Part shown: positions 11,333 through 64,000 of the stretch, in pieces | Numbering within the stretch: the stretch's first letter is position 1 | How the letters are laid out: every line of letters begins with the position of its first letter | Source of the DNA: a virus | Virus record (IMG/VR): IMGVR_UViG_3300037845_000036 | Coordinates: 33,059 to 97,058 of that record | Reading direction: 5' to 3' (one strand) | Length of the DNA: 64,000 bases | Translations under genes and position numbers: made by a program | Notes under the pieces: model-generated | What the model was told of the DNA's origin: nothing | Seen by the model: the letters and a program-made list of their open reading frames with translations, nothing else | The model's database searches: none

Positions 11333-14300
11333 TACTGATATAACCCATTTGCTTTAGCATATTCATTTTCTCGGGCTAGCCGTTGCAAAACCGCTTGTCC
11401 GTCACCCGTTTGTTGCCATTGAGAGAAAAGCGAACGCCGTTCTGTCGGGTCCATACGGCGTAGGACGAACGTATACGGTGTCACCGGAGCCGTTGCCTGC
11501 CAATTGCTTTCAAATCCCTCTACATGGCCTACACCGCCATGCCCTTCTTCCCATTGCTGTTGCGCCCGCGCTTTGGCGATTTTGTAATCATTAAGCCCCT
11601 CGTATTCACCAACAACTTGTTGTAGACCTTTAGGAGACATTTCTGGGCTAGGAAGTGTAGAACTAATGAACTGCATCTCTTGGAAAGCCGCCCGTGAAGA
11701 TACCTCCTTAGTTGCCTGACGAGTAAGATTCCCAGCATTTTTGACAAAATCTTCAAAACTAGCCACCTGTCCATCATATGAAGGATCAATTAGGCGCAAG
11801 TACCTACTTGCCTCTTGAGCCACGCCCGCAAACGGGCCTTGTACAAATTTCGGCGCGTCGGTTGCTAGGCGCTGCAACGTCGCCTGTTGACTCTGCGCGG
11901 ACTGCGCTTCGGCAAGAACCGCCTGTCGATCTTTTTGCTCAGTTTGGGCGCGGGCGACTAGCGCCTCTCTAGCACCAGGGCCAATTTCGGCCAGCATCGG
12001 GGCAGTGGGGGATGCGGCGCTGACATTGGTTGCGGCGGGTGCGGGAGTTGGAGCAGCCGAAGGCAGTTTCTGTGCTTGAGGTTGAATCTGAGGTTGTGGG
12101 GGCGTCCCACTATTCCCCGGCAATGGTGGGGCCATATAGGTACGGTATTTGTTCCCTTCTGCGTCGGTAGTTTCAGTCAAAGTCGGAACAGATGCGATGG
12201 CTTTGCCGCCTTGGAATATAACGCTGCCGGGACGAGTTGGCGTATACGTGTATTCTGATCGTGCCTTTTGTTCCGCTCCGGCTATTTCCCCAGCGACCTG
12301 CGGGTACATTTTTAGCAAACCAGACCTAGCCTCAATCAGTCTTGCGACGGTTGCCTGATTTTCCGTCAATTTAGTCGGCTCCCATACCATAGCGCGCCGC
12401 ACTTGGGCGATTTGCGCATCTATGGATTGGATTTGATTGTCCACTATTTCTTTAGTCGAACCAGGAGCACTATTCCCATATGTTGGTGGCAGCGGCAATC
12501 CAGTTAACGATGATGTTGCCGTCGCGCCCGCCGACGCTGTTGCTGCCCCATTTCCCTGACCAGTGGCGGCAACTGGCATTGGATTTGTATCTGTTCCCTT
12601 TACCGCTCCCGCAACAGGCGCACCCCCCGCCGCCGGTACCGCCGAACCTCCCGCCGCGTCAATTGCCGCTTGCATCTGGTGTGGTAACAACGCTGTATTT
12701 AGACGCGCAATATCGGCCTGCGCTTGCTTTAATTGACCTTCAGGTATCTGCGCCTGCTGTTGTTCAACGGTTTTCAACCCCGTCTGCAAGCCTTCACCTA
12801 CTGCCACGCCCATGTGCGGCGAGCGGGACGCCAGCATGCCCGCGCCAGTCGCGATCAGCGGCATCCATGGCGAGTTATAGAAATTGGAAGTCTTGTTGTT
12901 ATCGCCAGACTGGATTTTCGCTAAGATATTTTTGATCGATTCCGAGAGATCACCCGTACCTGCATTGGTAGTACCCTGAGCCGCTGGCGGTGATGGCAAT
13001 CCGGTAGTCTGAACGCCCGTTGGGTGCCCCAATCCGCCGCCGCCGCCACCTGGCCCAACCGCAACCCCACGCTCAAAATACTTATCCCATAATGTTTGTG
13101 CCGATGCCCGATCGGGCGCATTCAGAATTTCCTTCCAATGTGTCGTGGCAATCGGATCGCCGCCCGTCACTTCCTTCAATGCAAATTGGTTTTGAATATT
13201 AGGATCTGTCCATGATCCACTTTGTCCCGCCGCAAACGCTTGAAGGCCAGAGAGCCGCGTATCGTGATGCTGATAGAGACCGCCGCTTGGGGAGCCTTTA
13301 TCGTCAGGGTTCCACGCGTTAGGATCATAATGGCTTTCTCGGTAAACGCTATCGGCGATCCCTTCAGCCACATGCTGCGGGGCACCGCTGTTGACCCAGA
13401 AATTGACAACATCATCCCGCGATATCGCGGGCGGTTTTCCGCTCACGAGAGGCTTCACGGCTGATGGCGGAGGCGCGCCTAAGCCACCCGAGACCATGCC
13501 GCCGCCGACAGGCGAGGTAGTCGCCGGAACGCCAGCGCCCGGTGGTGCCACTAATCCCGATCCAAACACCTGATCGCTAGGCACAACAGGAAGGTGTGTG
13601 CCAGCGTTAGGATCAGCAGCATTCGCCTTCATGGCATCAACAGGCGTTATCGGTAAACCAGCACCGGCCGTGTTAGGCGTGACTCCGCCGGTAGGCTCAG
13701 TCGAATACGGCATGCCTTTTGAATTTATTTTCACTCCCGGAGGAAGTGCCGAAGTTTGCGGTAGCGATTGCGGAACCGCAACATCTGTTCCGTTATTGGT
13801 TATGGCAACAACGGGGGTTATCGGCAAATCCCCAGGGTCCAACCCTCCGCTCGGTTGATTTGTTTTCCGCACAATCTCGGGCGGGCCAACATTGTTCGGA
13901 TCATCAACGCCAGGGCTGCCGCCATCATCAAATCGCTCCAATCCCATCCGCCCGCCACGCGCCGCCGTAGCGGTGGGAGTAGCTTGCCCCTGTGCGCCCG
14001 TCCCCACAGTCGGATTCATCTTCCGTATCTGCAACGCGCGCTGTATCGCAACACCTTGCGGCGTTGTCGCGGGATAGCGTAGCGCCAATTCTTGCAATTG
14101 TTCGGCTGGGAGTTGGGAGTATTGCGCGACAAGGTTCTGTTGTAGCGGCGCTCCCGCTCCCGACGCCATCGCACCAGCCTGCGCGACAGCAACACCACCG
14201 CCCGCATCATACGGTCTTAACCCCGACGAAGATGGTGCCACCGCACCGCCAAGCGATGATCCGCCACCTACAGTCCCGGAATTGCTAGAGCTACTGCCGC

Positions 14301-16821
14301 CATTGAACAACTTCCCCAACCCCTGTGCGCCGCTCAGCACAGAAAGCCCCTGAGTAAGTGGGTTTTGCTGTTGCGGCATCGAAGGTGTACTGGGCGCACT
14401 CAATGTCCGCGATGGCGCGCTGGTTGTCGGGATATATCCTTTAGAGAGATCTGGAATCGACAGCGTGACGGACGGCATCGAAGCCGATGTACCATTTTGC
14501 ACCGCTCCGCCACCATCGTATTTGACGCGCCCACCCGCAGCCGCAAAGATCTTCGCGGCTAGCAAGCCAGCCTGAAGCAGACCGCCCAACGCGCCGCTGC
14601 CGCCCGATTGCGTTTGCGTCTGCGTCGTCACAGGCTGCATAAAGTTTTGATGTAACCCGCCGCCTAAAGATCCGGGTTGCGGAGGTGTGCCTAACCCGCT
14701 TGCTCCGGGAACAACCGAAACAGACAAATCAGGCGGCGGCGGGACTAATCCACCGCCTGCGTACCGATTCTTTGCGTTTGGTGCCGACCCATTTGGAGAA
14801 TCCCCTAGAATTCTACCGCCAGCTTTAGCCGTATCTCCCATCCACGGGGTAACATCACTGCCCCCTCCGTAATCCCCGCCCTCACTCCCACCAAACAAAC
14901 CCGACAGATACCCACTAGACCCAAACGCACCCGTCGCACCAAGAATACCAGCACCCGCTAATCCACCGCCTAGCAGTTCCGAGCCAAGATTTGGCCCTGG
15001 ATACGTGGTTGATCCCGTACCGCCCGATGCGCCGCCCAACCCTTCAGCAATATTTGATAACCACCCCGTTGTCTGGAACGGATAGGCTTGCTGTTGGATA
15101 AACTGCTCATACGGGACATTCAATTCATTCTGCAACTGCGCCTGCTGAACGCTACCCGCATTCAACAGCGAACTCGCACCTGTTAATCCCGTGTTTAGCG
15201 CTTCATTACCAAGATTTGCTATGCCGTAACCCGCACCTTCACCAAGCCACCCCGTCGCTTCCTGGGCACCAACACCCGCTTGCTGCTGAGTGTTGAACTC
15301 GCCCAACTCGCCCTGACCGATACCCATGCCAAGTTGCCCAGCGCCCAGCAAGCCAGACTCAGTAAGCTGCCCCGTCCCCAACTCCAACTGTCCGGCATTA
15401 GTGAGACCGGATTCTGTAAGCTGGCCGGCACCCAATCCTAATTGACCCGTCCCCAACCCGAGTTGGCCCGCGCCCAATCCCAACTGCCCCGCACCAAGCA
15501 TTCCTGATTCGGTGAGTTGCCCGGCACCTAATCCAAGCTGGCCAACACCGAGTCCCAATTGTCCCGCGCCAAGCCCCAACTGGCCGGCGCTCGCTTCCAA
15601 TTGGCCAGCATTGGTCAGGCCAGACTCGGCGAGTTGACCCGCTCCCAACCCCAATTGGCCACTCGCAGCTAACCCGGCCTCCGTCAACTGGCCAGCGCCC
15701 AACTGCATCTGCTGTTCGGCGTTTAACTCTTGCTGTGCCTGCGAGAACCCCTGTTGTTGGATACCGGCGATGACAGGGGCCTCCGCCGTCTGTTGCTGCC
15801 CTGCCGTGAGAGCCTGCGCCACCGCTTCCCGATCACCACCAAAAGCACCTGCCGCAGCGGCGTTGCCTTGGATCTGCGCCTGTTGAATGGCGTTCTGTTG
15901 ATTGAATTGTTGTTCTGTTGTCGCCGTTACATCTTGCTGATACGGATTAAAATATGTCGGCAACGCACTGTAATCGGTTGCCTTAGCCGTGTACGGCGAT
16001 ATTGCTCCCGGAATGCTCGCCCCAGTCGCGGCAGCTTGGGTTGCGTAAGGGTTGACGGTTCCCGGCAACTGGCCCGCGATTCCCGAAATCGAATTAGCCG
16101 CTCCTTCCGCACTCGCCTCACCCGTCGCTGCCGCCCCAGCACCCCCAGAACCAGTCGCAAAATTTGTATAATAATTAAGCGCCGAAGGAACCTGCCCCGC
16201 CAAATTTTCGGCCGTAGTAGCCCCAGTTGATGCCGTCCCTGCACCACTCGGTCCCATAGCCAGTCCGGTATAGGGACTAAGCGCACCCGGCATGCTTCCA
16301 GCCAAACCAAGCGTCGTTGGCGACGAACCATATCCATATCCCGCAGGAGGAACGGCGGTATCGCCCTGACCAGAAATTATGGCATTAGGCGCGGGTGTTT
16401 GCGGTGTCTGCGGCGCATATGCATTATTGACACCTGTAATCCCACTCAACTCTGATGGAAGCATTCCGGCGAGGCTACCCGCATTGGTGTACTGCCCAAG
16501 CCCCATTCCCGGCAAATTATACGCCCCCGGAAATTCCATCGGCGTAATCGGATTCGATGCACTCTCCATCAAATTATTCGCAGCGCCGATGTACGGGTTC
16601 GAGACTCCTTGGAGTCCCGCAACCTCGCTTAGCGCTTGGTTCTGATACGGCTGTAACGGCGCTACAATATTCGGGGCGCCCGCGCCGCCAGTCGGATATT
16701 GATTAAGCGGAACACCCGCGACATTCTGCGCCTGTGCTAGAACATTACTATAGGCGTCAAGAAATTGTTGCGGCGGTTGACTAGAGCTAGTCACCGTATT
16801 ACTTCCACTCGACCCGCACAT
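11332..16821 (-). CDS. Giant virion protein with tail-lysozyme domain (1829 aa)
   Basis: The longest protein here. The N-terminal third is Gly/Ala/Gln-rich and holds a heptad-like tandem repeat. Around residues 1140-1225 (nt about 13180-13410) there is a phage tail-lysozyme-like domain: FWVNSGAPQ, GIADSVYRESHYDPNAWN (probable catalytic Glu in YRES) and GGLYQHHDTRLSGL. Such domains locally cut peptidoglycan during DNA entry. The C-terminal 500 residues are helical. With the following 1300-aa protein it probably forms the internal ejection apparatus. Repeated RYAGGG/KYDGGG/RGGRMGLERFDDGG segments also occur, a feature of low-complexity phage proteins in this window. Confidence 0.7.
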   Translation of the reverse strand: MCGSSGSNTVTSSSQPPQQFLDAYSNVLAQAQNVAGVPLNQYPTGGAGAPNIVAPLQPYQNQALSEVAGLQGVSNPYIGAANNLMESASNPITPMEFPGAYNLPGMGLGQYTNAGSLAGMLPSELSGITGVNNAYAPQTPQTPAPNAIISGQGDTAVPPAGYGYGSSPTTLGLAGSMPGALSPYTGLAMGPSGAGTASTGATTAENLAGQVPSALNYYTNFATGSGGAGAAATGEASAEGAANSISGIAGQLPGTVNPYATQAAATGASIPGAISPYTAKATDYSALPTYFNPYQQDVTATTEQQFNQQNAIQQAQIQGNAAAAGAFGGDREAVAQALTAGQQQTAEAPVIAGIQQQGFSQAQQELNAEQQMQLGAGQLTEAGLAASGQLGLGAGQLAESGLTNAGQLEASAGQLGLGAGQLGLGVGQLGLGAGQLTESGMLGAGQLGLGAGQLGLGTGQLGLGAGQLTESGLTNAGQLELGTGQLTESGLLGAGQLGMGIGQGELGEFNTQQQAGVGAQEATGWLGEGAGYGIANLGNEALNTGLTGASSLLNAGSVQQAQLQNELNVPYEQFIQQQAYPFQTTGWLSNIAEGLGGASGGTGSTTYPGPNLGSELLGGGLAGAGILGATGAFGSSGYLSGLFGGSEGGDYGGGSDVTPWMGDTAKAGGRILGDSPNGSAPNAKNRYAGGGLVPPPPDLSVSVVPGASGLGTPPQPGSLGGGLHQNFMQPVTTQTQTQSGGSGALGGLLQAGLLAAKIFAAAGGRVKYDGGGAVQNGTSASMPSVTLSIPDLSKGYIPTTSAPSRTLSAPSTPSMPQQQNPLTQGLSVLSGAQGLGKLFNGGSSSSNSGTVGGGSSLGGAVAPSSSGLRPYDAGGGVAVAQAGAMASGAGAPLQQNLVAQYSQLPAEQLQELALRYPATTPQGVAIQRALQIRKMNPTVGTGAQGQATPTATAARGGRMGLERFDDGGSPGVDDPNNVGPPEIVRKTNQPSGGLDPGDLPITPVVAITNNGTDVAVPQSLPQTSALPPGVKINSKGMPYSTEPTGGVTPNTAGAGLPITPVDAMKANAADPNAGTHLPVVPSDQVFGSGLVAPPGAGVPATTSPVGGGMVSGGLGAPPPSAVKPLVSGKPPAISRDDVVNFWVNSGAPQHVAEGIADSVYRESHYDPNAWNPDDKGSPSGGLYQHHDTRLSGLQAFAAGQSGSWTDPNIQNQFALKEVTGGDPIATTHWKEILNAPDRASAQTLWDKYFERGVAVGPGGGGGGLGHPTGVQTTGLPSPPAAQGTTNAGTGDLSESIKNILAKIQSGDNNKTSNFYNSPWMPLIATGAGMLASRSPHMGVAVGEGLQTGLKTVEQQQAQIPEGQLKQAQADIARLNTALLPHQMQAAIDAAGGSAVPAAGGAPVAGAVKGTDTNPMPVAATGQGNGAATASAGATATSSLTGLPLPPTYGNSAPGSTKEIVDNQIQSIDAQIAQVRRAMVWEPTKLTENQATVARLIEARSGLLKMYPQVAGEIAGAEQKARSEYTYTPTRPGSVIFQGGKAIASVPTLTETTDAEGNKYRTYMAPPLPGNSGTPPQPQIQPQAQKLPSAAPTPAPAATNVSAASPTAPMLAEIGPGAREALVARAQTEQKDRQAVLAEAQSAQSQQATLQRLATDAPKFVQGPFAGVAQEASRYLRLIDPSYDGQVASFEDFVKNAGNLTRQATKEVSSRAAFQEMQFISSTLPSPEMSPKGLQQVVGEYEGLNDYKIAKARAQQQWEEGHGGVGHVEGFESNWQATAPVTPYTFVLRRMDPTERRSLFSQWQQTGDGQAVLQRLARENEYAKANGLYQ
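15300..15700 (-). repeat. Seven-residue (21-nt) tandem repeat in giant virion protein
   Basis: About 19 tandem copies of a seven-residue unit, AGQLGLG with variants AGQLTES and AGQLEAS, occupy roughly residues 375-505 of the 1829-aa protein. At DNA level the 21-nt units are related but not identical, so the pattern is kept at protein level. A period of seven with Leu/Gln at fixed places suggests a regular helix bundle or solenoid. Confidence 0.85.
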
Positions 16822-28503: not shown

Positions 28504-29001
28504 TCAATAATCTGCGCAAGAGATCACGGCATTTACAACGGTTGACGACGTTAGGTTGGTCGCAAAGGTCATCTGCACTGTGTCGCCACTGATCAGCCGC
28601 AGAAATGGATTGCCATCACTATTGAGCGGCAACCCAACCCAGATTGTCGGCGCGAACAAATTCATTGGCGGGACACCATTGGCAAAGCCCGCGCTTGCCA
28701 CGGTCGTAACTGCTGTTCCACCATATTTGACAGTGCTATTCACGATCTGCACTGTAATGAGATGCGTCGCGCTCCCGTCATTGGTTGTCAGCCACAAAGC
28801 GCTACAATCGGAGCCATTTGACCCCGCCGCATAGAGAGTCTTATACGTGCCCGCGCTATCGGTACCCTGAAGAAATTGGACAACGCCCCGATTAGGCGTC
28901 TGCGGCGTAACCGGACTGTTTGGTGTGACCGCAGCGCTCGCCGGTAATGCCAGTAGCGACAAAAACGCAAGACATAACAAGAAACGACGGAACATTATCA
29001 A
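28504..29001 (-). CDS. Exported virion-region protein (165 aa)
   Basis: A signal peptide (residues 1-23, ALPASA) precedes a beta-rich domain: [36 protein letters not shown] and [17 protein letters not shown]. The repeat-like strand pattern resembles small phage decoration or fibre-associated proteins; two cysteines occur in the mature part. Its ends overlap the 1017-aa fibre and approach the tailspike gene, so it is expressed with them. Confidence 0.6.
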
Positions 29002-32000
29002 ATCCCTCCATAAACAGCGTGCGTGATCGTTGCTGTTGCAGCCTGTATCGCCTTAACTGCCAATGTATTAATTGTTGTAAAGGTTGCCGCACCCGGCACC
29101 GCCCCGCCAATAGTGCCTGGCGATGCAAAGGTAGCTCCGTTCAAGCTCGATGCATTTAGGTTCGCAACGTTTGTTGTACTGCTTACCGTAAATGGCGCTG
29201 TCCCCGTCGAAACAGTAGAGGTAAACGTTACGCAATTCAGGCTTGTTGTATTAGTTGGCAACACGCACGCTGGCGTACCACCAGAATTCAATAAGGTAAG
29301 ATCGTTTACGCTGCCCTTGCCTATAAGAGTGAGACCGCCCGTTGTAGATGTTAAGTAAATATCACCTTCGCCATTCGCAGCTAAGGTCGGGGCGCTCGCC
29401 TCGCCACCAATCCCGAGCGTGCCTGCCCCTTGCGTCGGCAAGGTCGTTCCCGTAACCGCCTCATAACCTGTTACGGTAACGCTAGTCGAAGCCGTCAACC
29501 CGGAAATCGTTGGGTTTGTCCCGCCTACAGGTGAACCCGATCCCGTAGCGTTTCCCCCCAGCAACGTAGCAACGCCTGTACCCAACCCACTCACGCCAGT
29601 AGAAATCGGCAGACCTGTCGCATTAGTTAACGTGCCAGATGCCGGCGTACCCAACGCAGGAGTCGTCAAGGTCAAATTCGTTGCCGCAAGCCCGCTCGGC
29701 AGCGTAGTTGAAATAGAAGGCACTCCAGAAGCCGATGTCACCAGCACACCGCTGTTCGCGGTAGCCAAATTCCCCAAGACACCCGCATTATCGTAAAGTA
29801 ATCCTTTTGTCGTTCCGCTTGAAATCGTAGTTGTGCCAACGGCGATGCTTGATGCAGCGGCACCAACTGCCGTGATAACGCCGCCAGATGCGGTAATCGT
29901 CACGTTATCGACTTCAACCACACCGAACGCACTCGCAGATCCTTTTGCGACCGTAATCGCACCAGCGGTGTCCGTAATGATCGTCCCATCAGGCTTCACA
30001 CAACCAATCTGTGATGAGGTTGCCGTCGTGCAAGCGATAGTCCCAGCGGTTATTGTAAGCGTTGAACCGTCGCCCTGCAGGATGCCCTCGGCCACACTCG
30101 TGCCAACGGGCAGCCCGACGTAATTCCCGGCTGTAACCGACCCTGAAACATTCAGAGATGTGCCCGTTGCCGCGCCTAGAACTGGCGTAACAAATGTCGG
30201 CGTTGTAGTGCCCGCTGGCCCACCTGACCCAGACGCAGTACCGCTCAATAATGTCGCGACCCCCGTGCCGAGACCGCTAACACCCGTTGAAATCGGCAAC
30301 CCCGTAACATTGGTCATTGTTCCCGACGCGGGGGTACCCAAAACGGGTGCGGTCATCGTCGGTGCCGTAAGGGTCTTATTTGTTAATGTCTGAGTAGCCG
30401 CCAGCGTAACGACCGTCCCCGTAGTGCTAGGGAACGTCATTGTTGTTCCATCGGTCCCAGCCAATGTCAATGAATTGCTGAATGTTAGCGTTTTCCCGGC
30501 ACTGCCCGTTAATGTATAGGTTCCTGTCGTAAATGCATTTCCGTTTATGCTTGTCGCTGTTGCCACTCCTAAAGATGGCGAAGTCAGCACCATATTACTC
30601 GCAGAAAGACCACTTGGAAGCGCAGTAGAAAACGATGGAACACCACTTCCGTTGGCGCTTAAAACACCATTATTCGTAGTAACGATATTGCCTAATGTCC
30701 CCGCATTGTCATAAAGAATCGCGTTACTAGTTCCACTAGTAACCGTCGTCGAACCAACCGCGATGCTCGTGAGTGCCGACCCTACGGCGGTAATCACACC
30801 CCCCGAAGCCGTAATGGTGGTCCCGTCCACCTCCACAACCCCAAACGTACTAGACGAGCCTACTGGCAATCCGACATAGGTTGACCCCGTAAGCGTCGTA
30901 AATGTGCCCGCAGCCGCGACCGTTTGCCCAATCGCTGGCGGAGAAGCGAATAGATTAAGAATGCCATTTCCGCTCACCGTTCCTGAAGCTGCCAGCGTCG
31001 TAAACGATCCGGTCGATGGCGTTGTGCTGCCCACAGCGGGCGGCGACGCGAACAATGCCGTGAACCCCGCACCACTAACCGTTGAAGATGCCGATAGAGT
31101 CGTAAATGCACCCGTCGATGCCGCAGAACTTCCAATCGGACCAGGCGAAGCAAAACGCGCTGTAAAGCCGCTACCACTCACGGTGCTCGACGCGGCAAGG
31201 GTTGTAAAAGCCCCGGTAGAGGGTGCCGTTCCGCCAATCGCAGGAGGCGAACCAAACAACGCAGTGAATCCCGCACCACTCACCGTTGATGATGCCGACA
31301 ATGTGGTAAAAGCACCCGTTGACGGTGTAATCGCCCCCACGGTCCCGTCAAACGACCCCGTAGCCGCCACTAGCGCGGGGCCGTTCGCCAAAACGACACT
31401 CCCGCTGCCCGTTGGCGTGACCTGTCCTAACAGCCCCCCCGTCGCTTGGCTGATAATATAACCATCCGTCCCGCCGCTAATCGTCGTCGTTCCCACCGCC
31501 AGCGCTGTTGCCGCCGCAGTCACCGTGCAGCTAGACCCCAGCGTGCATGTTTGCCCATTTACAGTCGTCGCTGGATTTTGCAGATCCGTGTTAGTGACCA
31601 GCCCAGGCGCAGAAAATGACGAACCCAGAGTCAATCCCGCAAAAGTCGGACTATTCGCGACACCCAACCCCAAATTGTTTAAGGCAGCCGGCAACACGGC
31701 ATTTGAAGCCGTGACATTCATCTGCCCGCCAGGGACAGCATTCGCCAGAACAAATGCTGTCGTCGCCAATTGTGTTGTATTGGTCCCCAAGGGCGCGGTC
31801 GGAGCGGTCGGGGTACCTAAAAATGCGGGGCTGGTCTGAAATGCAAATGCCCCAGTCCCCGTGGCTGTCGCGATGAGATGATATGTCACCCCACCGCGCA
31901 CGAGCGGCAACAAGTCGCCCGCACCCAATTGCCCCGCGTTAGGGGCGTTCATTATAAATTTAGCCCAATAGTCGCTCGTAACCTGCGCAGACCCCTCGCC

Positions 32001-32051
32001 CGCACAGCACGCCAACATCACAAAACTGAGAACTGCCCCCCAGCGCCGCAC
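28998..32051 (-). CDS. Long repetitive tail fibre (1017 aa)
   Basis: Starts at GTG with a signal-like segment (residues 1-22, GSA). The N-terminal domain is [21 protein letters not shown], a head seen in many phage fibres. It then has five repeats of about 28 residues ([20 protein letters not shown]). Two longer duplicated blocks follow ([22 protein letters not shown] ... LPSGLxAxNxxLTxPxLG), and the tip ends [18 protein letters not shown]. Repeat structure suggests a long trimeric shaft. No S74 chaperone is seen at its C terminus. Confidence 0.75.
30900..31330 (-). repeat. Tandem repeat of about 84 nt in the long fibre
   Basis: The coding DNA for the FTTLxASSTVSGxGFTAxFxSP units repeats about five times with roughly 84-nt period. 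Copies differ at many wobble positions but keep the protein pattern, so shaft length could change by recombination between units. Confidence 0.75.
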
Positions 32052-50230: not shown

Positions 50231-53119
50231 TTATAGGTCGTAGGGCAACGCGCGAGCACGTTGCGTCGGCCACGTCATCGACTGCTCTTCGCCCTTGTCC
50301 CAAGCTTCGCGGCGCTCGAAGATGCCGATATCGCTTAGATGTTTGAGAGCACCACTACAAGCGTCCATGGTGTCGTCATGTCTTCCTCTAGGAAATAAGC
50401 AAATTTCCTCAATCAATGGTTCGCACCAGACGGGTCTCGTTCCATCTTCATACATCGGAATATAGAGTTGGTGTGACGAAAATATCCACTGTACTGCATG
50501 AGCGCGCGCCCATTTGTCCCCACGTGCGGCCTTTAACTCTGTTGCCCATGTCTGATCAGAAAAAAGCCGTCGTAATTCTTGTTCTAAACCGTGCCCTTGG
50601 CCCTGAGTCTCAATCCCAAGATATTCGACTTTATAGCGTCGGCAGGTGTCATTAACCCATTCCACCAATCCCCAGTTGGCTTGCCGCTGTTCTCGATATC
50701 GCGGCGAACGCCATTCCTCTGCCGTCACACCAGAAGGCAATTCATCGGGCGGTCCATGTAACTCTAGCCGCTTGGTCCATCCATAAAGCAACAACACCTT
50801 TGGAAACCCGTAGTCATCAGCCTCTCGAATATATGTACCGTCCCCATTAGGGACGATGCGCCCCTTGCCCTCCGCCCTGAACACACCAAACACCAACATC
50901 GCGCTTCGATCATTCTGCTGTCTCTCGGTAAACGCCGTGTCCACCCATGCCACGACATATTCCAACGCAGGATACTGTATCCGGCCGTTTCGGATCATGT
51001 CTTGCGGAAACGTTCCATCAGGCAATAATGGAGGCCACGGTTCCAACCACTCTGCCTTAATAATTCCGCCGCCTTTTGGTATAGGAAGCTGTTGTAACTG
51101 ACCTGCTACACTGTATTCCGTAAGACGATCGCCATCAAGAGCACGTAATCCTTGCTCTATTTGCTTGAGAGCACTATCGGTCCACACTGCTGGCCAAAGT
51201 AATTCTCCACGCTCTGTTCTTGGGTCTCCTTGGCATGCTCGATCAGGATCAAATCTGGCCGGGTACATCAAGTGTACAGTGTCTTCTGGCCAGTTTTTTA
51301 GTGCCCAATCTGTTGCATCAAGAGTGTGTAATCTTTGCATGATCAATATTCGTGCAGACGTGCGCGGATCTGTAATACGAGTTGTCAAATCACTCATACC
51401 ACGAATTGAAGCATTGCGCTCCATTTCACTATCCGCACCTCTGCGAGTTTGGGGATCGTCGCAGATTATTAAATTTCCGCCACGGCCCAACAGGCCGCCT
51501 TCGATTGAACTTGACATGCGCTCACCACCAGCAGTATTGCCGAAGTTGGCTCTGCTCTGCTGATCCGGCAGTATTTTTACTTGTTTACCCCAATGTTTTT
51601 GATACCATTCCCCCATAACCAGTCGTCGCATCTTAACGGCAAGTTCCTCTGAAAGAATAGAACCGTATGACACAGACAAAATCTTCACATGAGGGCCAGA
51701 AAGAGGCCCCCATTTCGCTTCTGGCTGTATCCATAGCCATGCTGGGAAGATAATATTGACCAAATTGCTGTTATGAACAGCCAAATCATTAACCGTAAAA
51801 CTCTCGTCTTCTTTAACGGTCAGGCATCTACATTCCGCCTTGCCTGCGCCAACGATGCTAAGAACGGGATCAGGATGAAGGACAGTGTGGAAACTCCGAG
51901 GCGTTGCTGCCTCTATCGCTCTTTTTTTCCTTTCGCAAAGACCTGGCAAAAATTTGAATTTGCTAACATTCGTTTCATCAGTGGCCCCCACATCAAATGA
52001 TGTGTATAACCCTCCCGGCTGTCGCTTGCTTTCAAGTTTTGCCACACGGCGACGAATACGAGTATTGATCCCTATTCGTAGACACAAATGTTGAATATCC
52101 CTAGCCAAACCTTCTGATACAGTAGTCATTTTCGCTTCGTGGCTTAGTCGTGTATCATTTCTATGCTTTACTGCAAAATATCCGTCACAACTGGCATACG
52201 CCCCAACAAAATTTGATATAATCGTATTGTTCGCCCGCAACACAGCGGCGGGAACTCGTTTGGTATAACTGTCAGAACCACGCAAGCCATGGCCCCCTAG
52301 AAATTCCTGCAGACGCCCACTTCGGTTAGAATGGACTCCTATCGCCGTACAGGTACCCACCCGTGTCCGTCGTTTAGTCTCAAATCCTAGCGCGTGTGCG
52401 CATCGTTCAAAATCATCCAGGATTTCTTCTTCATTCCCCGTAAACGAAATTCCTGTGTATTTAACAGAACCATCACCGATCAAATATCCCAAAAAACGCG
52501 CTTCTTCCGTTGACATGCTTGGGGACACAACTTCGCTCCCCGTCGCATCTCCGCCCACCGCTGCCAAAATATCTGTCGTCTTTAATTCCCCGGCGGCTAC
52601 CCAACCACGCGTGGTTAAAAACGGATGATCTGGCGCCACCTTTGCTCGGCGTCCCTGAAATGTTTCTACCGCTATGACATCCAACAATCCCTGTTCATGA
52701 ACCGCCGTGACAGGTCTATATTGTCCCCTATGCGTCAGTACACGATCACCAACTTTAATGTCTCCCAATCTTATTGGTCCAATGTCCGTCAATACCATTT
52801 CATCTATACTGACCGGCTTTGTGTGCCTCGGAGGTATGTTGATAATGAGATTTCTTATCTTTCCCGTTCTTATTTGCCGTAATTTCTTGGCGATTTCTAT
52901 ATGATGCCAATTAATTTCTAATGTCTGCGTCTCACCAATTTCCTTCCACGCATGGCGCATGAACTCAATCAGCGACCGCTCGCAATTCTCCTTTTCCTGC
53001 TTGTTCGCCCTCATCTCCAGCAGGATCGCAAGCTCGATCTGCTCTTCCTTGGTGAGCGGCTTTAGCTTTTTCCGATCGACGTTGGGGTTTGGTCGGAGAA
53101 TTAATTGACCGCCGGGCAT
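50231..53119 (-). CDS. terL: Large terminase subunit with intein
   Basis: A 962-residue precursor (ATG at 53119; a TTG two codons earlier is possible). Without the intein the packaging ATPase/nuclease is about 613 residues. Walker A is split: PPRHTK ends at residue 101 and the chain resumes with SNLVNIIFPAWLW at 451, giving PPRHTKS after splicing. Walker B is GNLIICDDP. The nuclease part has VAWVDTAF, YLGIETQGQGHG and LFPRGRHDDTMDA, the three acidic positions of the RNase-H-like fold. It pumps DNA into the prohead and cuts concatemers. A small stem (GAGCCG/CGGCTC, 53131-53145) lies just before the start. Confidence 0.95.
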   Translation of the reverse strand: MPGGQLILRPNPNVDRKKLKPLTKEEQIELAILLEMRANKQEKENCERSLIEFMRHAWKEIGETQTLEINWHHIEIAKKLRQIRTGKIRNLIINIPPRHTKPVSIDEMVLTDIGPIRLGDIKVGDRVLTHRGQYRPVTAVHEQGLLDVIAVETFQGRRAKVAPDHPFLTTRGWVAAGELKTTDILAAVGGDATGSEVVSPSMSTEEARFLGYLIGDGSVKYTGISFTGNEEEILDDFERCAHALGFETKRRTRVGTCTAIGVHSNRSGRLQEFLGGHGLRGSDSYTKRVPAAVLRANNTIISNFVGAYASCDGYFAVKHRNDTRLSHEAKMTTVSEGLARDIQHLCLRIGINTRIRRRVAKLESKRQPGGLYTSFDVGATDETNVSKFKFLPGLCERKKRAIEAATPRSFHTVLHPDPVLSIVGAGKAECRCLTVKEDESFTVNDLAVHNSNLVNIIFPAWLWIQPEAKWGPLSGPHVKILSVSYGSILSEELAVKMRRLVMGEWYQKHWGKQVKILPDQQSRANFGNTAGGERMSSSIEGGLLGRGGNLIICDDPQTRRGADSEMERNASIRGMSDLTTRITDPRTSARILIMQRLHTLDATDWALKNWPEDTVHLMYPARFDPDRACQGDPRTERGELLWPAVWTDSALKQIEQGLRALDGDRLTEYSVAGQLQQLPIPKGGGIIKAEWLEPWPPLLPDGTFPQDMIRNGRIQYPALEYVVAWVDTAFTERQQNDRSAMLVFGVFRAEGKGRIVPNGDGTYIREADDYGFPKVLLLYGWTKRLELHGPPDELPSGVTAEEWRSPRYREQRQANWGLVEWVNDTCRRYKVEYLGIETQGQGHGLEQELRRLFSDQTWATELKAARGDKWARAHAVQWIFSSHQLYIPMYEDGTRPVWCEPLIEEICLFPRGRHDDTMDACSGALKHLSDIGIFERREAWDKGEEQSMTWPTQRARALPYDL
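51770..52816 (-). mobile_element. Intein with LAGLIDADG endonuclease in terL Walker A
   Basis: A 349-residue intein between Lys101 and Ser451 of the precursor. The N-terminal splicing block starts with Pro (PVSIDEMVLTDIGPIRLGD). Block B is AKVAPDHPFLTTRGW, with His but Ala at the usual Thr place. The end is CRCLTVKEDESFTVNDLAVHN followed by Ser. A Cys replaces the usual Asp of block F, and the last Asn plus penultimate His are intact. The nuclease insert has FLGYLIGDGS and FVGAYASCDGYF, the two acidic helices of a LAGLIDADG enzyme. Pro first and block-F Cys recall class 3 inteins, but the Trp and Thr of that class's WCT set are Phe and Val. Confidence 0.92.
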
Positions 53120-53125
53120 GGGCAA

Positions 53126-56618: not shown

Positions 56619-56894
56619 ATGTACGAAGCGACGGCGTATGAAATCACGTTGCGCGACAAGGATGGCAAGCGTTGGCTGATCGCCTACAGTGAGCGCCATA
56701 CGCAACGGTGTGTTTGCCAGAATTTTTCGGCGCATCATCCGAAGATTCAGCGGTTTATCGCTCCGACTGATGCGCGGTGGGACAGGGCGCGCAAGCGGTA
56801 TATCGCGGCAGAATGGGAGTTTGGCTTTACGGGTCGGACGAGGCGGCAAGCGAAGCAGGAGGGCGAATTGCCCCGCTTCGGCGATGCGGCGTAG
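56619..56894 (+). CDS. Early phage protein, unknown (91 aa)
   Basis: Nine bases after the previous gene. Compact basic protein: YEITLRDKDGKRWLIAYSER, RCVCQNFSAHHPKIQRFIAP and FGFTGRTRRQAKQEGELPR. Mixed strands with a basic C terminus. Not recognised. Confidence 0.65.
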   Translation: MYEATAYEITLRDKDGKRWLIAYSERHTQRCVCQNFSAHHPKIQRFIAPTDARWDRARKRYIAAEWEFGFTGRTRRQAKQEGELPRFGDAA

Positions 56895-56924: not shown

Positions 56925-57197
56925 ATGACATCAGATTATCCGACGCGCGGTTTCAACATCGTGCAGCCATCAATCGCTGAGACACAATTGACTGGCTGGG
57001 TTGCGACCGCTCAGTTCTCGCGGCTTGGTCACGAGTATGCGATCAAGTTCATTGACAACCGCATGCCGCGCCTCAGCGTCGAGTGCATGCGCGACGGCAA
57101 GCCGATCGCGTGGCACCGCTTGAGCGACAAGGCTCGGCAGGTGGCGCACAAAGCAGCCGATTTTCTCAAGAGCGCTCGGGCGATTGCCGCAGCGTAG
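56925..57197 (+). CDS. Early phage protein, unknown (90 aa)
   Basis: GGGGAGACAGGG lies before the ATG. The protein has TGWVATAQFSRLGHEYAIKF, a strand PRLSVECMRDGKPIAWHRL and a C-terminal helix ARQVAHKAADFLKSARAIA. It is the last gene of the cassette, followed at once by an intrinsic terminator. Unknown function. Confidence 0.65.
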   Translation: MTSDYPTRGFNIVQPSIAETQLTGWVATAQFSRLGHEYAIKFIDNRMPRLSVECMRDGKPIAWHRLSDKARQVAHKAADFLKSARAIAAA

Positions 57198-57221: not shown

Positions 57222-57248
57222 GCGGCGCCTCCGGGCGCCGCTTTTTTT
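57222..57248 (+). terminator. Intrinsic terminator of early cassette
   Basis: GCGGCGCC and GGCGCCGC form a perfect 8-bp GC stem around TCCG, followed by seven T. This is a standard rho-independent terminator, 24 bases after the last gene of the plus cassette. Confidence 0.92.
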
Positions 57249-57314
57249 GCGGACGACGTTGCGATGTTGCGATTATTTTCGCGCGGCGCGCTGACCCACG
57301 GCATAGCGGGCAAA

Positions 57315-57602
57315 GGGACATTCGGGACATTTTTGAGCGTTTTCTATTCACGCTCTATAGGAATCACTCTTTTGTTCCCCACTAGTTCTAATTTAGGTGT
57401 TTTTTTTCAATATATCGATTCTTAGTAGAAAGATGTCCCTAATGTCTCTTTGGGCGTCGATATGCCGCTGTCGGTCAATGGGTTAACCCAAGGGACATCA
57501 CGAAAAATAATGTCCCTTGGGATGTCCCTAATGTCTCTTAGCAAAGGGACATCACAGGGACATCTTTTGGGGGGCAAATAATGTCCCTGTGCATAATGTC
57601 CC
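57315..57602. repeat. GGGACAT iteron cluster, candidate origin
   Basis: The gene-free stretch 57198-57665 holds ten perfect copies of GGGACAT: direct at 57315, 57324, 57492, 57546, 57557 and inverted (ATGTCCC) at 57433, 57510, 57522, 57581, 57596. Two ATGTCTC variants are at 57442 and 57531. The 19-mer GATGTCCCTAATGTCTCTT occurs twice (57432, 57521). AAGGGACAT and ATGTCCCTT make a 9-bp inverted repeat at 57490-57518, next to the palindrome GGGTTAACCC (57480-57489). An A/T-rich block (57360-57430) lies in the middle. The primase/helicase gene ends beside it. This fits an iteron-type replication origin. Confidence 0.8.
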
Positions 57603-57665: not shown

Positions 57666-60218
57666 TTAGAACGGAGGTTCATGTGTCGGTTGATTGACGC
57701 CCTCTGTTGTATGACCTGATCCGAGGGTGCCGCCAAACGGTTGCGTAAGGCGAGCGGCATCAATGTATGACAGACCGTCTTCGGTTAAGCGAATGCCGGC
57801 CGTGAGGCGAGCACCGTTGCTTTTTCCTGGCTTGGACGATGGGCAACGGCGTTTGAGTACTGCGAGCAACGTGCGGCCTCCGGGTGGCTTGTTTTGTTTA
57901 TCCGCCTCGCCGAATTGCTGACGCCACCATTCGGTCATGCAGGCGACAAGATCGCGGTTGTCCACCTTGTATCGCTTATCGATGGCGACACACTCGGTTA
58001 TCCAATTTCCGATCGGTTGATTGATCTCGCGGAGTTCGTCGATTGCCGCAACCATGTTTATAGGCGGATCGAAGCGGCCTCGGGCGCGCAATCGTCGCCA
58101 GCCTTGCATGGCGAGGTTTAGGACACCGGCTAGTTCTTCTTCAATAACGATCTGGTCGATCTCGCGCAGTTGCGGATCGGTGTTGGCGGCATCTTCGGGC
58201 CACTCACGATTGAGCGGAAATATCAGCATCCTGTTGTAAACAGCTTCGGAATCATCACGGATCTTGGGGAGACTGTTGCCGGTCCAGATAACGGGAATGT
58301 CGAGACCGGGATGCGAAACATAGGTGCCGCCAGCTATGCGAATTGAAATTGGTTCGCCGGTGACGATGACCTTAAAGCGCTCGGCCGATAAGGGTTTACT
58401 GGTCGAGCTTGCTTGCTCAATGACATCATCGGCGATCCATGCGGCGGCGTGAAGCAGTGGGGCCACGCCAAAGAGATCATCCAAATCGGTTGCTTTAATC
58501 GAGGCGCAACGCGCGGGTCCGCCAAATAGGGCGCGGTAAATGTTGGCGATGCGGGTTTTACCGCTGCGAGATTTGCCGAGGAAGAATAGTGCCTTGCGAA
58601 GATTGCGTGGTTTACCGGATACGAGTGATGCGCCCATGTGCTCGGTGAGGCAGTCGATTGCGGCTTGCATCTCGTTGTCGTTCATGCCGTCAAGGGCGGA
58701 TTTGAGGAACGCAATGAATTGCGGGCAGGCTGCGGTTGGATCGTAGGCGCAATTGATGCGCCAGGTTGCATATAGCTCGGGGTTAATGGTGGATGTCTCG
58801 CCAGTTGCCGGATTGATGACGCAATCATTGCAGACAACTAACCCGCTTTTATCCCATGGCACGGATTCGCGGTGTAGGCGCGGGCGTTCTTTGATATATC
58901 GCCATATCGAATTGAGTACTGATGAAGTCGGTTTTACCGATAGCGTTGCGGCTATGCCTTGAATGGCAACGCGAAGGCGGTGCTCGACTTCTTCGTTAAA
59001 TAATTCCCAAATACCTGATGGAGCATTATATGTTGCCATTGTTTCGCCGGTTGATATCAATGTGCCGTGGTTTTGCTCCCAATAGGTAATTGTTGATTCT
59101 CCGACCGATATGATTGGTTCTGGTCCGTCGTCTTTTTTTTTCTTTTGATGTGCTTCCTCGCGTTTGGTGACGAGGTTAACTACAGTTGCGCCATTGCCGC
59201 TGTTATTAGCTGATTGCGGAGGTTTTTGTTCTTCGCGTGGTTTGGTAAATTTTGTATGAGCGCTCGCCACCATGGCGCGGATTGAGGCTTCCTCGCGTTT
59301 CCAATTCCAGTTATCGACATATTGACCGGCTGCGGCTCGGGTTGCGGCCATGATAGAATCGACAATTTTTTGGTCTTCCTCGCCTTGGGCAACAAGCGAG
59401 GCGGACACTGATAGTTGCGTTTGATGGATACCTGTATCGCCATTGCCAAGGTATTGCATCGCGGCAAGCCGCTGTTCGGTGTCGATGGCTGGCTTGAACG
59501 ACAGCAGGCGAGCGGCGGCGAGGTAGGGATTGTTGTCGTGTGGCTTGGCGTGACCATTGGTTAGCGGTGCGATCAGGACGGGTCGCTGTCGGTCGAGCAT
59601 TTCGACGATATCGTTAAATTCGATGGCGACATTTGATCCGCCAACGATATGGGCGAGTTGTGGCTGTTCTAAATCAGTTTTGGTGTTGTGTGTGCCAGGC
59701 AGGCGCATGATGCGCGCGAGGTCGCACACAGAAAGATCGCCCGCGAGGATGCCAGCGAGTTGTTTTAGGACATCGACGATCTGCTCATCGCGATCGGTTT
59801 TGCGGATATCGATTGGTTCGCGCAATAGCCAATAGCAATGAATGCCGCCACCGCTATCGACGATGATTGATGGCGGATATTCAATTTGATTAGAGGCGGC
59901 ATCAATTGCTTGTTCTTTGGTGATGTTAAGTTTGTAGGTATCAATATCAACCCATAGTGCCGGAAGCTCGCAGCAATGGGCGCGGTCGCCTTTGCCGAAA
60001 CCCGGTTGACGTGTGGCGACGCCAAAATAAACTGCGCGGCCAATATCGTCCCATTTTACGCAATGATCGCTGACAAGCTTTGCTTGGCGCGTGAATAAAG
60101 GTCGAGCGGCGCCTTCATCTTTGACGTTTGGCAACGCTCGGATTTCGACAGCTTCGGTTGTGTGTTCAAAGAAGCGGGCGAGGAAATCACAGGATTCTGA
60201 GTAGTCAAAATCGCGCAA
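57666..60218 (-). CDS. Primase / SF3 helicase replication protein
   Basis: An 850-residue two-part enzyme, probably started at TTG after GGGGGGAGGG. The N-terminal part has ELPALWVDIDTYK (metal-binding Asp-x-Asp) and SIIVDSGGGIHCYWLL, features of archaeo-eukaryotic/RepB-type primases. The C-terminal part is a superfamily 3 helicase: FFLGKSRSGKTRI (Walker A, about residue 550), AAWIADDV (Walker B) and IPVIWTGNSLP (sensor). An NRMLIFPLNREWP arginine region follows, then a P4-type C-terminal DNA-binding domain. It would prime and unwind phage DNA at the adjacent repeat cluster. Confidence 0.85.
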   Translation of the reverse strand: MRDFDYSESCDFLARFFEHTTEAVEIRALPNVKDEGAARPLFTRQAKLVSDHCVKWDDIGRAVYFGVATRQPGFGKGDRAHCCELPALWVDIDTYKLNITKEQAIDAASNQIEYPPSIIVDSGGGIHCYWLLREPIDIRKTDRDEQIVDVLKQLAGILAGDLSVCDLARIMRLPGTHNTKTDLEQPQLAHIVGGSNVAIEFNDIVEMLDRQRPVLIAPLTNGHAKPHDNNPYLAAARLLSFKPAIDTEQRLAAMQYLGNGDTGIHQTQLSVSASLVAQGEEDQKIVDSIMAATRAAAGQYVDNWNWKREEASIRAMVASAHTKFTKPREEQKPPQSANNSGNGATVVNLVTKREEAHQKKKKDDGPEPIISVGESTITYWEQNHGTLISTGETMATYNAPSGIWELFNEEVEHRLRVAIQGIAATLSVKPTSSVLNSIWRYIKERPRLHRESVPWDKSGLVVCNDCVINPATGETSTINPELYATWRINCAYDPTAACPQFIAFLKSALDGMNDNEMQAAIDCLTEHMGASLVSGKPRNLRKALFFLGKSRSGKTRIANIYRALFGGPARCASIKATDLDDLFGVAPLLHAAAWIADDVIEQASSTSKPLSAERFKVIVTGEPISIRIAGGTYVSHPGLDIPVIWTGNSLPKIRDDSEAVYNRMLIFPLNREWPEDAANTDPQLREIDQIVIEEELAGVLNLAMQGWRRLRARGRFDPPINMVAAIDELREINQPIGNWITECVAIDKRYKVDNRDLVACMTEWWRQQFGEADKQNKPPGGRTLLAVLKRRCPSSKPGKSNGARLTAGIRLTEDGLSYIDAARLTQPFGGTLGSGHTTEGVNQPTHEPPF

Positions 60219-60257: not shown

Positions 60258-60962
60258 TTAAAAGGGGATGTCGTCGTCGAGATCTCGCTGTGTTGCGATT
60301 GATGAAGGTGCACCAGCGCCGGCTTTGCTGCCACGTCCGCCGCTTTTTGGCGGTTCTATTGCGGCTTGTGGTGTGGTGGTTGGGTTATCCGAAGATGTCC
60401 AGCCCACGACATTGAAAACGGGAAAGTAGGTTTTCCCGTAGGTCTGGTGCATGTAGAAGTCTTTTTGCAATTCGACGATCGGCAGCATGTTAGGGCGTTG
60501 GCGATATTCGCGCCCATAGACTTGGCAGAGCCGACCGATTGCGTTTAACCCGCCCTTTGAACTGGTGCCGTAGATGTAGACTTCGGCATCATCCGTCGAT
60601 AGCTGCAGGGCGTTGGTAAACCGCCACGGGTCGCGCGGTTTTCCTGTCGCGGAATCGATATCCCATAGGGTTTCATCGAGGTCGCCGAGTTCCTCGCGGC
60701 GCAACCGTATGGTCTGCGTCGTAAGCAATTCCATGCGATCATCGGTGACTTGTTTGTTTTGCCAGCGCAGCCAGCCGATTTTGAGACCGGGAAGATTTGC
60801 GATCAGCTTTGTACCAAGACTCAAGCTATCGCCGTCTTTTCCATAAAGCCATTCGCCGGTCTTGAAAGACAAGAACGTTCCTTCCTGTTGCACGACTTTG
60901 GCTGCATAAGCGGAATAGGGATCATCGCCGCCGCCGCCGGTAGGTGTGAGATCGTTTGCCAT
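60258..60962 (-). CDS. ssb: Single-stranded DNA-binding protein
   Basis: A 234-residue protein with AGGAAA before the ATG. The body is beta-rich (EGTFLSFKTGEWLYGKDG, VYIYGTSSKGGLNAIGRL, GKTYFPVFNVVGWT). After a Gly/Ala/Pro linker the last six residues are DDDIPF, identical to the partner-binding tip of bacterial SSB. It therefore likely coats single strands and recruits host or phage replication enzymes. The OB fold itself is divergent, so identity rests on the tail and operon position. Confidence 0.8.
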   Translation of the reverse strand: MANDLTPTGGGGDDPYSAYAAKVVQQEGTFLSFKTGEWLYGKDGDSLSLGTKLIANLPGLKIGWLRWQNKQVTDDRMELLTTQTIRLRREELGDLDETLWDIDSATGKPRDPWRFTNALQLSTDDAEVYIYGTSSKGGLNAIGRLCQVYGREYRQRPNMLPIVELQKDFYMHQTYGKTYFPVFNVVGWTSSDNPTTTPQAAIEPPKSGGRGSKAGAGAPSSIATQRDLDDDIPF

Positions 60963-60989: not shown

Positions 60990-62027
60990 TCACTTGATGG
61001 TAAGTCGGGCGCCGGGTTCGCCGACTTTTCGATATGGATCAAGATCGAGGCCGGCAGCCTCGGCAGATTTGATATCTACGGTTTCTCGCCCTTTTGTCGG
61101 TTGCCAGGCGATTGACCATCCGTCACCATTGACCCTGCGCACTCCATTAGCGCGCAGGAACTCCGTTATAGCAAATTTGGCTTTGGCGTGTTCTGCTTCG
61201 TCAGTGTCGCATTGTTCAGCAAGATCGCGTTCAGCATCACGTAACGCCTTGAATTCAGCCATAACATTATCGCCAAGCGGTTTTTCGTCTTTTGGAATGC
61301 CGGCGACGGTTGCGGCTTGGCAATGTGAAGACCATGGGCAGTAATTGCATTCGGCACCGCCTGCAATCTTACCTTCAGGTGGTAAATCGAGTGCGTTCAT
61401 AGTATTCATGATCTGACGCGAGCGCTCTTGCGCGGCAGTGTAAATAGACGGATCAAAAGTAACGGGAAATTCTTTGATTTCATCAAGGAATGACGAGTCT
61501 ATGTAACTGATTATTGCATAATCCGGTTTATAGCTGGTATGTGCGCGCAGGAGACCTAGTTGTACAATTACCTGAAATTTATGGTGACTGCGTTCTATTC
61601 TGAGATCGGCGCGCGGATCGATGCTTTTGCATTCGATGGCGAGGCAACGGGAAGGACCGATGTCAGCGATGCCGAGGTGGGCGAGGCAATCGTGCGGTAA
61701 TCCGGTTAAGACACCATCTGGTGTTGCCGAGAGATAGCCGTCAACGATGGTCTGCTGGTCTACGCCGGCTAGTACTAGGGTGATCTCGCGCGGCAGTGCG
61801 GCGCGCAATCCGGGTGTCCAATAATAATCTTCGATGAGATTGCCGCGCAATCGTGCGCCATAGCGATCTTGATAATCGGGATCGGGCGGCGTGTCGTTTT
61901 TGGCGAACCATGTTTTGCGCAGACACGCGCCGATTTCGGATGCGCCTATGGTATTGGCGCGATCGTGGGCGAATTCTCGATTGAGGGTAGAAGCATACTG
62001 ATGCAACAGGGAGCGAATTGATAACAC
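60990..62027 (-). CDS. Cas4/RecB-like PD-(D/E)xK exonuclease
   Basis: A 345-residue protein from a GTG. The nuclease core has TPDGVL (Asp104), AIECKSI (Glu132-x-Lys134) and HKFQVIVQLGLL (Gln motif). Four cysteines, Cys35 (GACLRKTWF) and C227, C230, C236 (AECNYCPWSSHC), match the 4Fe-4S set of Cas4/AddB enzymes. It would resect DNA ends for recombination-dependent replication. First gene of the minus-strand replication operon, 27 bases before SSB. No CRISPR array is present. Confidence 0.85.
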   Translation of the reverse strand: MLSIRSLLHQYASTLNREFAHDRANTIGASEIGACLRKTWFAKNDTPPDPDYQDRYGARLRGNLIEDYYWTPGLRAALPREITLVLAGVDQQTIVDGYLSATPDGVLTGLPHDCLAHLGIADIGPSRCLAIECKSIDPRADLRIERSHHKFQVIVQLGLLRAHTSYKPDYAIISYIDSSFLDEIKEFPVTFDPSIYTAAQERSRQIMNTMNALDLPPEGKIAGGAECNYCPWSSHCQAATVAGIPKDEKPLGDNVMAEFKALRDAERDLAEQCDTDEAEHAKAKFAITEFLRANGVRRVNGDGWSIAWQPTKGRETVDIKSAEAAGLDLDPYRKVGEPGARLTIK

Positions 62028-62119: not shown

Positions 62120-62196
62120 CGCCCCAAACGCTCGATAATATCCTACTAAATCGCGACACGGTGCCGCAAGGGGAACTTTAGCCGAGTGGTTGATTT

Positions 62197-62238
62197 GTGC
62201 GATTTGCATTGACCATCGACAGGTCGCGGCAATACGCT
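62197..62238 (+). promoter_or_regulatory. Early promoter 2 with GTGCGATTT box
   Basis: GTGCGATTT (62197-62205), three bases, TTGACC (62209-62214), 18 bases, TACGCT (62233-62238). The -10 is weak. A start about seven bases on would coincide with the XRE ATG at 62244. Confidence 0.5.
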
Positions 62239-62243
62239 GCGGT

Positions 62244-62519
62244 ATGACAGATGAAACCGGAACGATGGGGCAGCGCTTGCGTCAACTGCGGCAGGATCAC
62301 GGTCAGACCGTGCGCGGCGCGGCTGAGGCGATCGGGTGCGCGTTCAATCACCTATCAATGTTGGAGCGCGGCACTGCGGCTAATCCGTCGCTGCTGATGC
62401 TACAGGGAATCGCCCGCCATTATAGCGTTAGCGTCGCCTATCTCATTGGCGAGGATGGCATAAAAAATCGTTGGGCCGACCGTGCGATTTATGTTGACGA
62501 CATGAGCGAGCTTCCCTAA
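62244..62519 (+). CDS. XRE-family (Cro/CI-like) regulator
   Basis: About 91 residues from MTDETGTMGQRLRQLRQDHG; the Met at 62265 is an alternative. The HTH reads QTVRGAAEAIGCAFNHLSML ... ERGTAANPSLLMLQGIARHYSVSVAYLIGE, complete with the typical terminal YLIGE. It is a DNA-binding protein of the phage switch type and faces the replication operon. No Shine-Dalgarno site is visible. The next promoter lies inside its last codons. No integrase or C-terminal peptidase domain is seen, so a Cro-like early switch is as likely as lysogeny control. Confidence 0.8.
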   Translation: MTDETGTMGQRLRQLRQDHGQTVRGAAEAIGCAFNHLSMLERGTAANPSLLMLQGIARHYSVSVAYLIGEDGIKNRWADRAIYVDDMSELP

Positions 62520-63389: not shown

Positions 63390-64000
63390 ATGGTAAACCA
63401 TCCTAATCGTAATAAGCGCGCAAAGAAGACACAAGGGGCTGCGCAGAAAGTTACAGACGCCGAAACCGTAATCACCATTAAGGGATTTGATAACAATCTT
63501 CAGTGCCGAGGGTACCAATTCGAGATTGGTAAATCATATTTGCATGATGGCCCTGTTGTTATTTGCGAAAGCGGGTTCCATGGCATCGAGGGTCATCCGC
63601 TGCAAGTGCTGCGGTACTATCGCCCAGCCAAAAGCCGATATGCGATAACGACCCAAAGCGGCAGCCTTGTTCGGCATCCTGAAGACAGTAAGATTGCATC
63701 GGCACACATTACGATTGATGCCGAAATCGGATTGCCAGCGCTCATTGAGCGGGTCGTCAAATGGGTTTTTGATCGTGTAAAACCGGAAGCCAAAGCCGAC
63801 GAGCCGAATGGAGCCGCGACAGCATCGGGCGGCTCCGGAGCCGCGACAGCATCGGGCTACTCCGGGGCCGCGACAGCATCGGGCAACTACGGGGCCGCGA
63901 CAGCATCGGGCAACTCCGGAGCCGCGACAGCATCGGGCTACTCCGGGGCCGCGACAGCATCGGGCTACTCCGGGGCCGCGACAGCATCGGGCAACTCCGG
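63390..64000 (+). CDS. DUF7666-like protein with nine-residue repeats, partial
   Basis: AGGAG stands upstream of the ATG; the gene runs off the right edge. Residues about 25-120 form a domain with VITIKGFDNNLQCRGYQFEI, SYLHDGPVVICESGFHGIEG, HPLQVLRYY and DSKIASAHITIDAEIGLPAL, which I recall as DUF7666. From residue 141 on there are tandem units GAATASGxx. In the family such repeats can be very long. Role unknown; the repeat could form a beta solenoid. Confidence 0.7.
   Translation, partial: MVNHPNRNKRAKKTQGAAQKVTDAETVITIKGFDNNLQCRGYQFEIGKSYLHDGPVVICESGFHGIEGHPLQVLRYYRPAKSRYAITTQSGSLVRHPEDSKIASAHITIDAEIGLPALIERVVKWVFDRVKPEAKADEPNGAATASGGSGAATASGYSGAATASGNYGAATASGNSGAATASGYSGAATASGYSGAATASGNS
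63810..64000 (+). repeat. 27-nt tandem repeat at right edge
   Basis: Seven almost identical copies of a 27-nt unit (GGAGCCGCGACAGCATCGGG plus seven variable bases) encode GAATASG with two changing residues (GS, YS, NY, NS). The array is cut by the window edge. Such near-identical units invite copy-number change. There are no unique spacers, so it is not CRISPR. Confidence 0.93.

Follow-up and report, generated by a model that had tools for sequence, protein, structure and literature searches.

A strip of phage DNA crowded with short heptamers raises the question of whether this is where the phage begins to replicate. The strip lies in the window, by which the whole stretch of 64,000 nucleotides that was analysed is meant, and its repeat cluster (57315-57602) is found directly 3' of a primase-helicase gene. 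The first-pass annotation regarded the heptamers as iterons for a phage initiator, possibly the adjacent SF3 primase/helicase. This is the best-supported reading, since repeat clusters accompany the homologous primases, a winged helix is modelled in the enzyme, a skew minimum is nearby, and precedents are available from SaPI, PICI and SCCmec. The cluster is most probably the replication origin of the phage, with iterons read by the C-terminal winged helix of the primase (probability about 0.87).

The repeat cluster and its surroundings

The strip is gene-free and lies between converging genes, as had been noticed. The + strand ORF ends at 57197, a terminator-like hairpin with a T run (57222-57241, +) marks the end of the + strand genes and one edge of the strip, and the primase gene on the - strand ends at 57666. 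All ten exact GGGACAT copies reported in both orientations were recovered, starting at 57315, 57324, 57492, 57546 and 57557 (+) and at 57433, 57510, 57522, 57581 and 57596 (-); the two variant heptamers are GAGACAT, at 57442 and 57531 (both -). Outward from the primase stop, ten copies are followed by an A/T-rich block of about 100 bp and then by an inverted pair, and two iteron sets (57315-57330 and 57433-57602) flank the block (57331-57432). The distal pair on its far side (57315-57330, +) reads GGGACAT-TC-GGGACAT with 9-bp spacing; the proximal pair (57433-57448, -) reads GAGACAT-TA-GGGACAT and is inverted relative to the distal one. Eight further iterons in both orientations occupy 57492-57602, and the first iteron lies 62 bp past the primase stop. 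The block is the presumed melting region, and its A/T richness is real (67.6% A+T): of all 102-bp stretches of the window, the one richest in A/T starts at 57329, and the block ranks in the top 0.02% of 102-bp windows.

Other repeats described for the strip fared unequally. The 19-mer direct repeat is exact (57432-57450 and 57521-57539) and GGGTTAACCC is present at 57480-57489; the proposed 29-bp inverted repeat was not recovered, the longest arms being 24 nt with 88% complementarity (57311-57334 and 57429-57452). Perfect inverted arms of 12 bp can be read at 57487-57498 and 57510-57521.

The window contains 20 exact copies of GGGACAT against 8.0 expected, and the highest count in 100 shuffled sequences was 18. 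The whole record (97,058 bases) contains 22 copies, 10 of which fall inside the 288 bp of the cluster, where 0.036 would be predicted from the density in the rest of the record. The motif had been called rare elsewhere; the record has a single cluster, but the 12 copies outside are at chance density and not especially rare. An equal density elsewhere, which would have spoken against an origin, was not found.

GC skew at four-fold sites changes sign across the cluster (P 2e-48; the compared genes are all on the - strand), as at an origin, although the codon preference of early genes could partly account for the flip. The GC-skew minimum, whose position had been suggested as a check, was found about 1.5 kb from the cluster.

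Several other features of the window are recorded here. A 91-aa ORF (56619-56894, +) is 69% identical to one in locus L135 (15681-15953, -), and both are antisense and lie between the primase and TerS. The large terminase gene (50231-53125, -) carries an intein-like insert with a LAGLIDADG match (3.8e-16) and a weak intein splicing match under the cut-off (5.6e-6). Two very long - strand ORFs on the structural side (11332-16821, 1829 aa; 28998-32051, 1017 aa) matched nothing in PHROG at 1e-5. At the record end, 63813-64000 consists of a 27-bp tandem array (7 copies, 93%); this array also terminates a near-identical contig (L001, 1-292), with about 11 units, and both assemblies break there. This contig is the only near-identical relative, and its 99.99% identity leaves too little divergence for selection on the repeats to be seen. 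A search of genome contigs for relatives found none.

The primase-helicase and its homologues

The presumed initiator (57666-60218, -) is an 850-aa protein that combines a P4-family PrimPol with an SF3 helicase. The D5_N model was matched above its cut-off, DUF5906 just below (26.2 versus 27.6 bits), and the P4-family C-terminal model TIGR01613 was passed by a narrow margin (109.4 bits against the curated cut-off of 108.7; homologues 119-125). The SF3 core is present, with D5_N/SF3 accompanied by a Walker A and SF3 motifs that can be read from the sequence (GKSRSGKT and WTGNSLP), and the N-terminal half shows primase-polymerase-type motifs (DID and SGGGIHCYW, likewise read). The protein also matches phage DNA primase families and the solved primase 7OLA (E 1.3e-11), which we take to be SaPI5 PriRep1.

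A single-sequence AlphaFold model of the C-terminus reached a pLDDT of 41, and an alignment-based model was used in its place. Modelled from ten aligned sequences, the C-terminus is predicted to be a winged helix (pLDDT about 93 within the domain). This presumed iteron reader comprises residues ~735-825 and is encoded at 57744-58016 (-). Structurally it is matched best by the RFX DNA-binding domain and the ASFV PrimPol, with modest E-values (3e-3 to 6e-2); the RFX matches have a probability of 1.00 (E 3e-3 and 2.5e-2), and the winged-helix origin-binding domain is in this sense a prediction. The P4 origin-binding domain is not among the top structural matches listed. The tail domain of ASFV PrimPol has been grouped with RFX1 and with the origin-binding domain of P4 alpha (PMC10516667).

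A search with aligned primases retrieved ten relatives that match over the full length, with 36-42% identity in the best segment; the helicase half of one of them (L236) is only 22% alike to that of the window primase. The phrog_9528-like gene (60258-60962, -) and the RecE/Cas4-like exonuclease gene (60990-62027, -) are kept upstream of the primase in relatives. A GGGACAT cluster follows the primase in none of the ten, and GGGACAT itself was rejected as the conserved signal of this primase family, since the homologues use other words. Seven of the ten have another heptamer 6-11 times within the 400 bp that follow the primase stop; no other window of their loci reaches this count. The remaining three are less regular: in L228 the cluster, of eight CGGTGCA, is displaced by one gene from the primase, L236 has a weaker set of AGGTGGC, and L230 has degenerate repeats only. 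Absence of the cluster in related phages had been named as evidence against an origin; the word GGGACAT is indeed absent there, but a cluster is present with another word.

In the seven relatives, the first copy lies 0-40 bp past the primase stop and spacings of 8-12 bp between adjacent copies are frequent; five of them have one or two copies on the other side of a spacer of about 80-95 bp. Counted from the primase stop, the window has a pair at +216/+225, a spacer and an inverted pair at +335/+344. The map of L233 nearly coincides with it (+216/+225, spacer, inverted pair at +317/+326). Written in one register, the words are ATGTCCC (window), GTGCCGC, GTGCCCC, GTGCAGT, GTGACGC, GCGACTT and GCGTCTT. 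L233 and L234 share one word and that of L229 is one base off; their C-termini are among the closest (46-60%), in a small sample. The near-equal maps and the homologues' own dense clusters indicate a constant place and architecture with a changing word. These homologues are the decisive evidence for the origin reading.

Four further loci (L133-L135 and L002) have the window's N-terminal primase half, exonuclease and phrog_9528-like gene together with other helicase halves. Other repeats (3-5 copies) occur right after their primases, which alone are not statistically outstanding. The fusion of one N-terminal primase half to different helicase halves is a modular exchange within a single gene.

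Repeat clusters in other viruses and alternative functions

A scan of viral contigs revealed GGGACAT clusters in at least 119 stretches, whereas the reversed motif gave 11. The excess is therefore real, in a set that was selected by the motif itself. The matches listed fall into 49 DNA-dissimilar groups. In 25 of these the cluster is beside an AAA_25-type primase-helicase gene, mostly at its 3' end; an SF3 primase is found in two groups (the window and L061), DUF3987 in two, and in five enterobacterial-type groups the cluster adjoins TerS, where lambda has its cosB. In the complete records inspected, a GGGACAT cluster occurs essentially once. The base preceding the heptamer is A in the window, C with AAA_25, and T both with DUF3987 and at TerS. 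Because this base varies by class, the sites are not shown to descend from one ancestor, and the clusters of the different classes are probably not one shared site. The papers listed by a literature search for the strings GGGACAT and ATGTCCC were all unrelated.

Among 13 motif-bearing phages of the primase class, the cluster lies low on the cumulative GC-skew curve (mean rank 0.26, P 0.001), a result confounded by gene-direction changes and including two partial records. The four records of the TerS class were alike in mean rank (0.26, P 0.05); cumulative skew therefore does not separate the classes.

A panel of annotated phages was picked by primase similarity alone and not by the motif. Its members with SF3 or AAA_25 primases often showed the same anatomy. 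The heptamers following the primase include CGTGACA (14 copies) in Rhizobium 16-3, GTATAAA (10) in Roseobacter CRP-831, ACGTAAC (9) in Streptococcus Javan626, CGGTACA (8) in Idiomarinaceae 1N2-2, AGGGACG (6) in Rhodobacter RcapNL and TAACAGA (5) in Paenibacillus Wanderer; RHph_X2_25 has 15 copies of its own heptamer. No cluster was found there in several SF3 phages of the panel, nor in its 9NA/Sasha-type and Vibrio phages. Rhizobium 16-3, RHph_X2_25, CRP-831 and 1N2-2 (L219, L220, L221 and L223) encode AAA_25 RecA-like primase-helicases, with 8-15 phage-specific heptamers 0-350 bp past the stop; these sets are probable unannotated origins.

The main alternative, which we consider improbable, is that the cluster is a packaging start (cos or pac) and its repeats are binding targets of the terminase small subunit. 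The gene order (primase, cluster, three small ORFs, TerS, TerL) would suit this function, the GGGACAT cluster abuts TerS in the enterobacterial-type groups, and the annotated cohesive end of RcapNL comes after the primase and its repeats. However, the window cluster lies 1.1 kb from TerS and does not adjoin it, and the repeats of the family touch the primase stop whereas 1.4-2 kb separate TerS from the end of the primase (L229, L230 and L233). The distances are larger still in Rhizobium 16-3, where 3.6 kb lie between the iterons and both TerS and the record end, and in Javan626, where TerS is 6.4 kb from the repeats; nor would a packaging site be expected to show the skew flip. In some enterobacterial-type prophages a TGGGACATT cluster with 12-13 bp spacing stands directly before the TerS gene (L013, 3610-3828; L073, 1830-2065; L136, ~13000-13290), and from its position it may be a cosB-like site of those prophages.

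Two other functions are very unlikely. Plasmid iteron arrays also titrate initiators, and the repeats might on this model serve partition or replication control (incompatibility) and not initiation; but no ParB-like gene was recognised among the scanned neighbours, the A/T block within the array and the conserved layout point to initiation, and control by the same initiator would be compatible with an origin. Short direct and inverted repeats can also be operators, e.g. of the HTH regulator encoded nearby (62190-62519), but the strip lies between converging gene ends with promoter matches at chance (1 found, 1.2 expected), and in the homologues the repeats follow the 3' end of the primase gene.

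The proposed origin and known systems

For a replication origin at this site, we infer binding, melting, the hexamer number, the start of synthesis and its (bidirectional) direction as follows. The GRGACAT iterons would be bound by the winged helix at the C-terminus of the neighbouring primase-helicase. Complexes, probably helicase hexamers, might assemble on the two iteron sets that flank the A/T block, and the block would melt. SF3 rings could then unwind outward, while the first primers would be made by the N-terminal primase half, with the host replisome taking over afterwards.

This reading assigns an origin to an uncultured phage, and the relatives provide a natural series of homologous initiators with their own iteron words at the same site. 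Such a series makes the recognition code of P4-type winged-helix initiators testable, as well as phage compatibility and exclusion. For phages without annotation it also suggests a simple rule on where to search for the origin: in the few hundred bases past the primase-helicase stop codon. A more speculative idea is that 3'-end iteron origins are a general replicon module of tailed phages, with unrelated engines (SF3, AAA_25 and perhaps DUF3987) and an exchangeable DNA-reading domain. If true, it would explain why GGGACAT is common to different engines while SF3 relatives re-tune the word at a fixed place.

Comparison with known systems showed several similarities. The iteron word of phage P4 is GGTGAACA, and P4 uses a second distant site, crr; no crr-like second distant site was found here, which sets the window apart from P4. 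They are alike in a P4-family primase, in heptamer or octamer iterons, and in a C-terminal winged helix (here modelled), the origin-binding fold of P4 (PMC10516667). The helicase Cch2 of SCCmec is of the D5/SF3 type and binds direct repeats just downstream of its own gene (PMC7581432); unlike the window, it has only three 5-nt iterons and a separate primase-polymerase. The primase-helicase orf904 of pRN1 also requires a cis element, within up to 166 bp downstream of the replication gene (PMC4234260), whereas that element is a stem-loop and no iterons were found there.

A close resemblance in layout is with the staphylococcal and related islands. SaPI Rep uses its C-terminal domain to read iterons that directly follow its own gene (PMC7581432), and PICI origins follow pri-rep with two iteron sets around an A/T-rich region, replication having been shown for EcCICFT073 (PMC6092414). 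The window likewise has a primase-helicase gene, then a probable short-iteron origin with two sets around an A/T-rich region; however, the islands are satellites with another iteron word, whereas the window belongs to a large phage with its own terminase. The position of the cluster directly 3' of the primase-helicase gene, as in origins of the SaPI, PICI and P4 type, fits the origins or binding sites of the SaPI, PICI and SCCmec helicases. The origin, very probable at this place, is of a type already known from P4 and the staphylococcal islands; what is unusually clear here is the swap of the iteron word at a fixed site.
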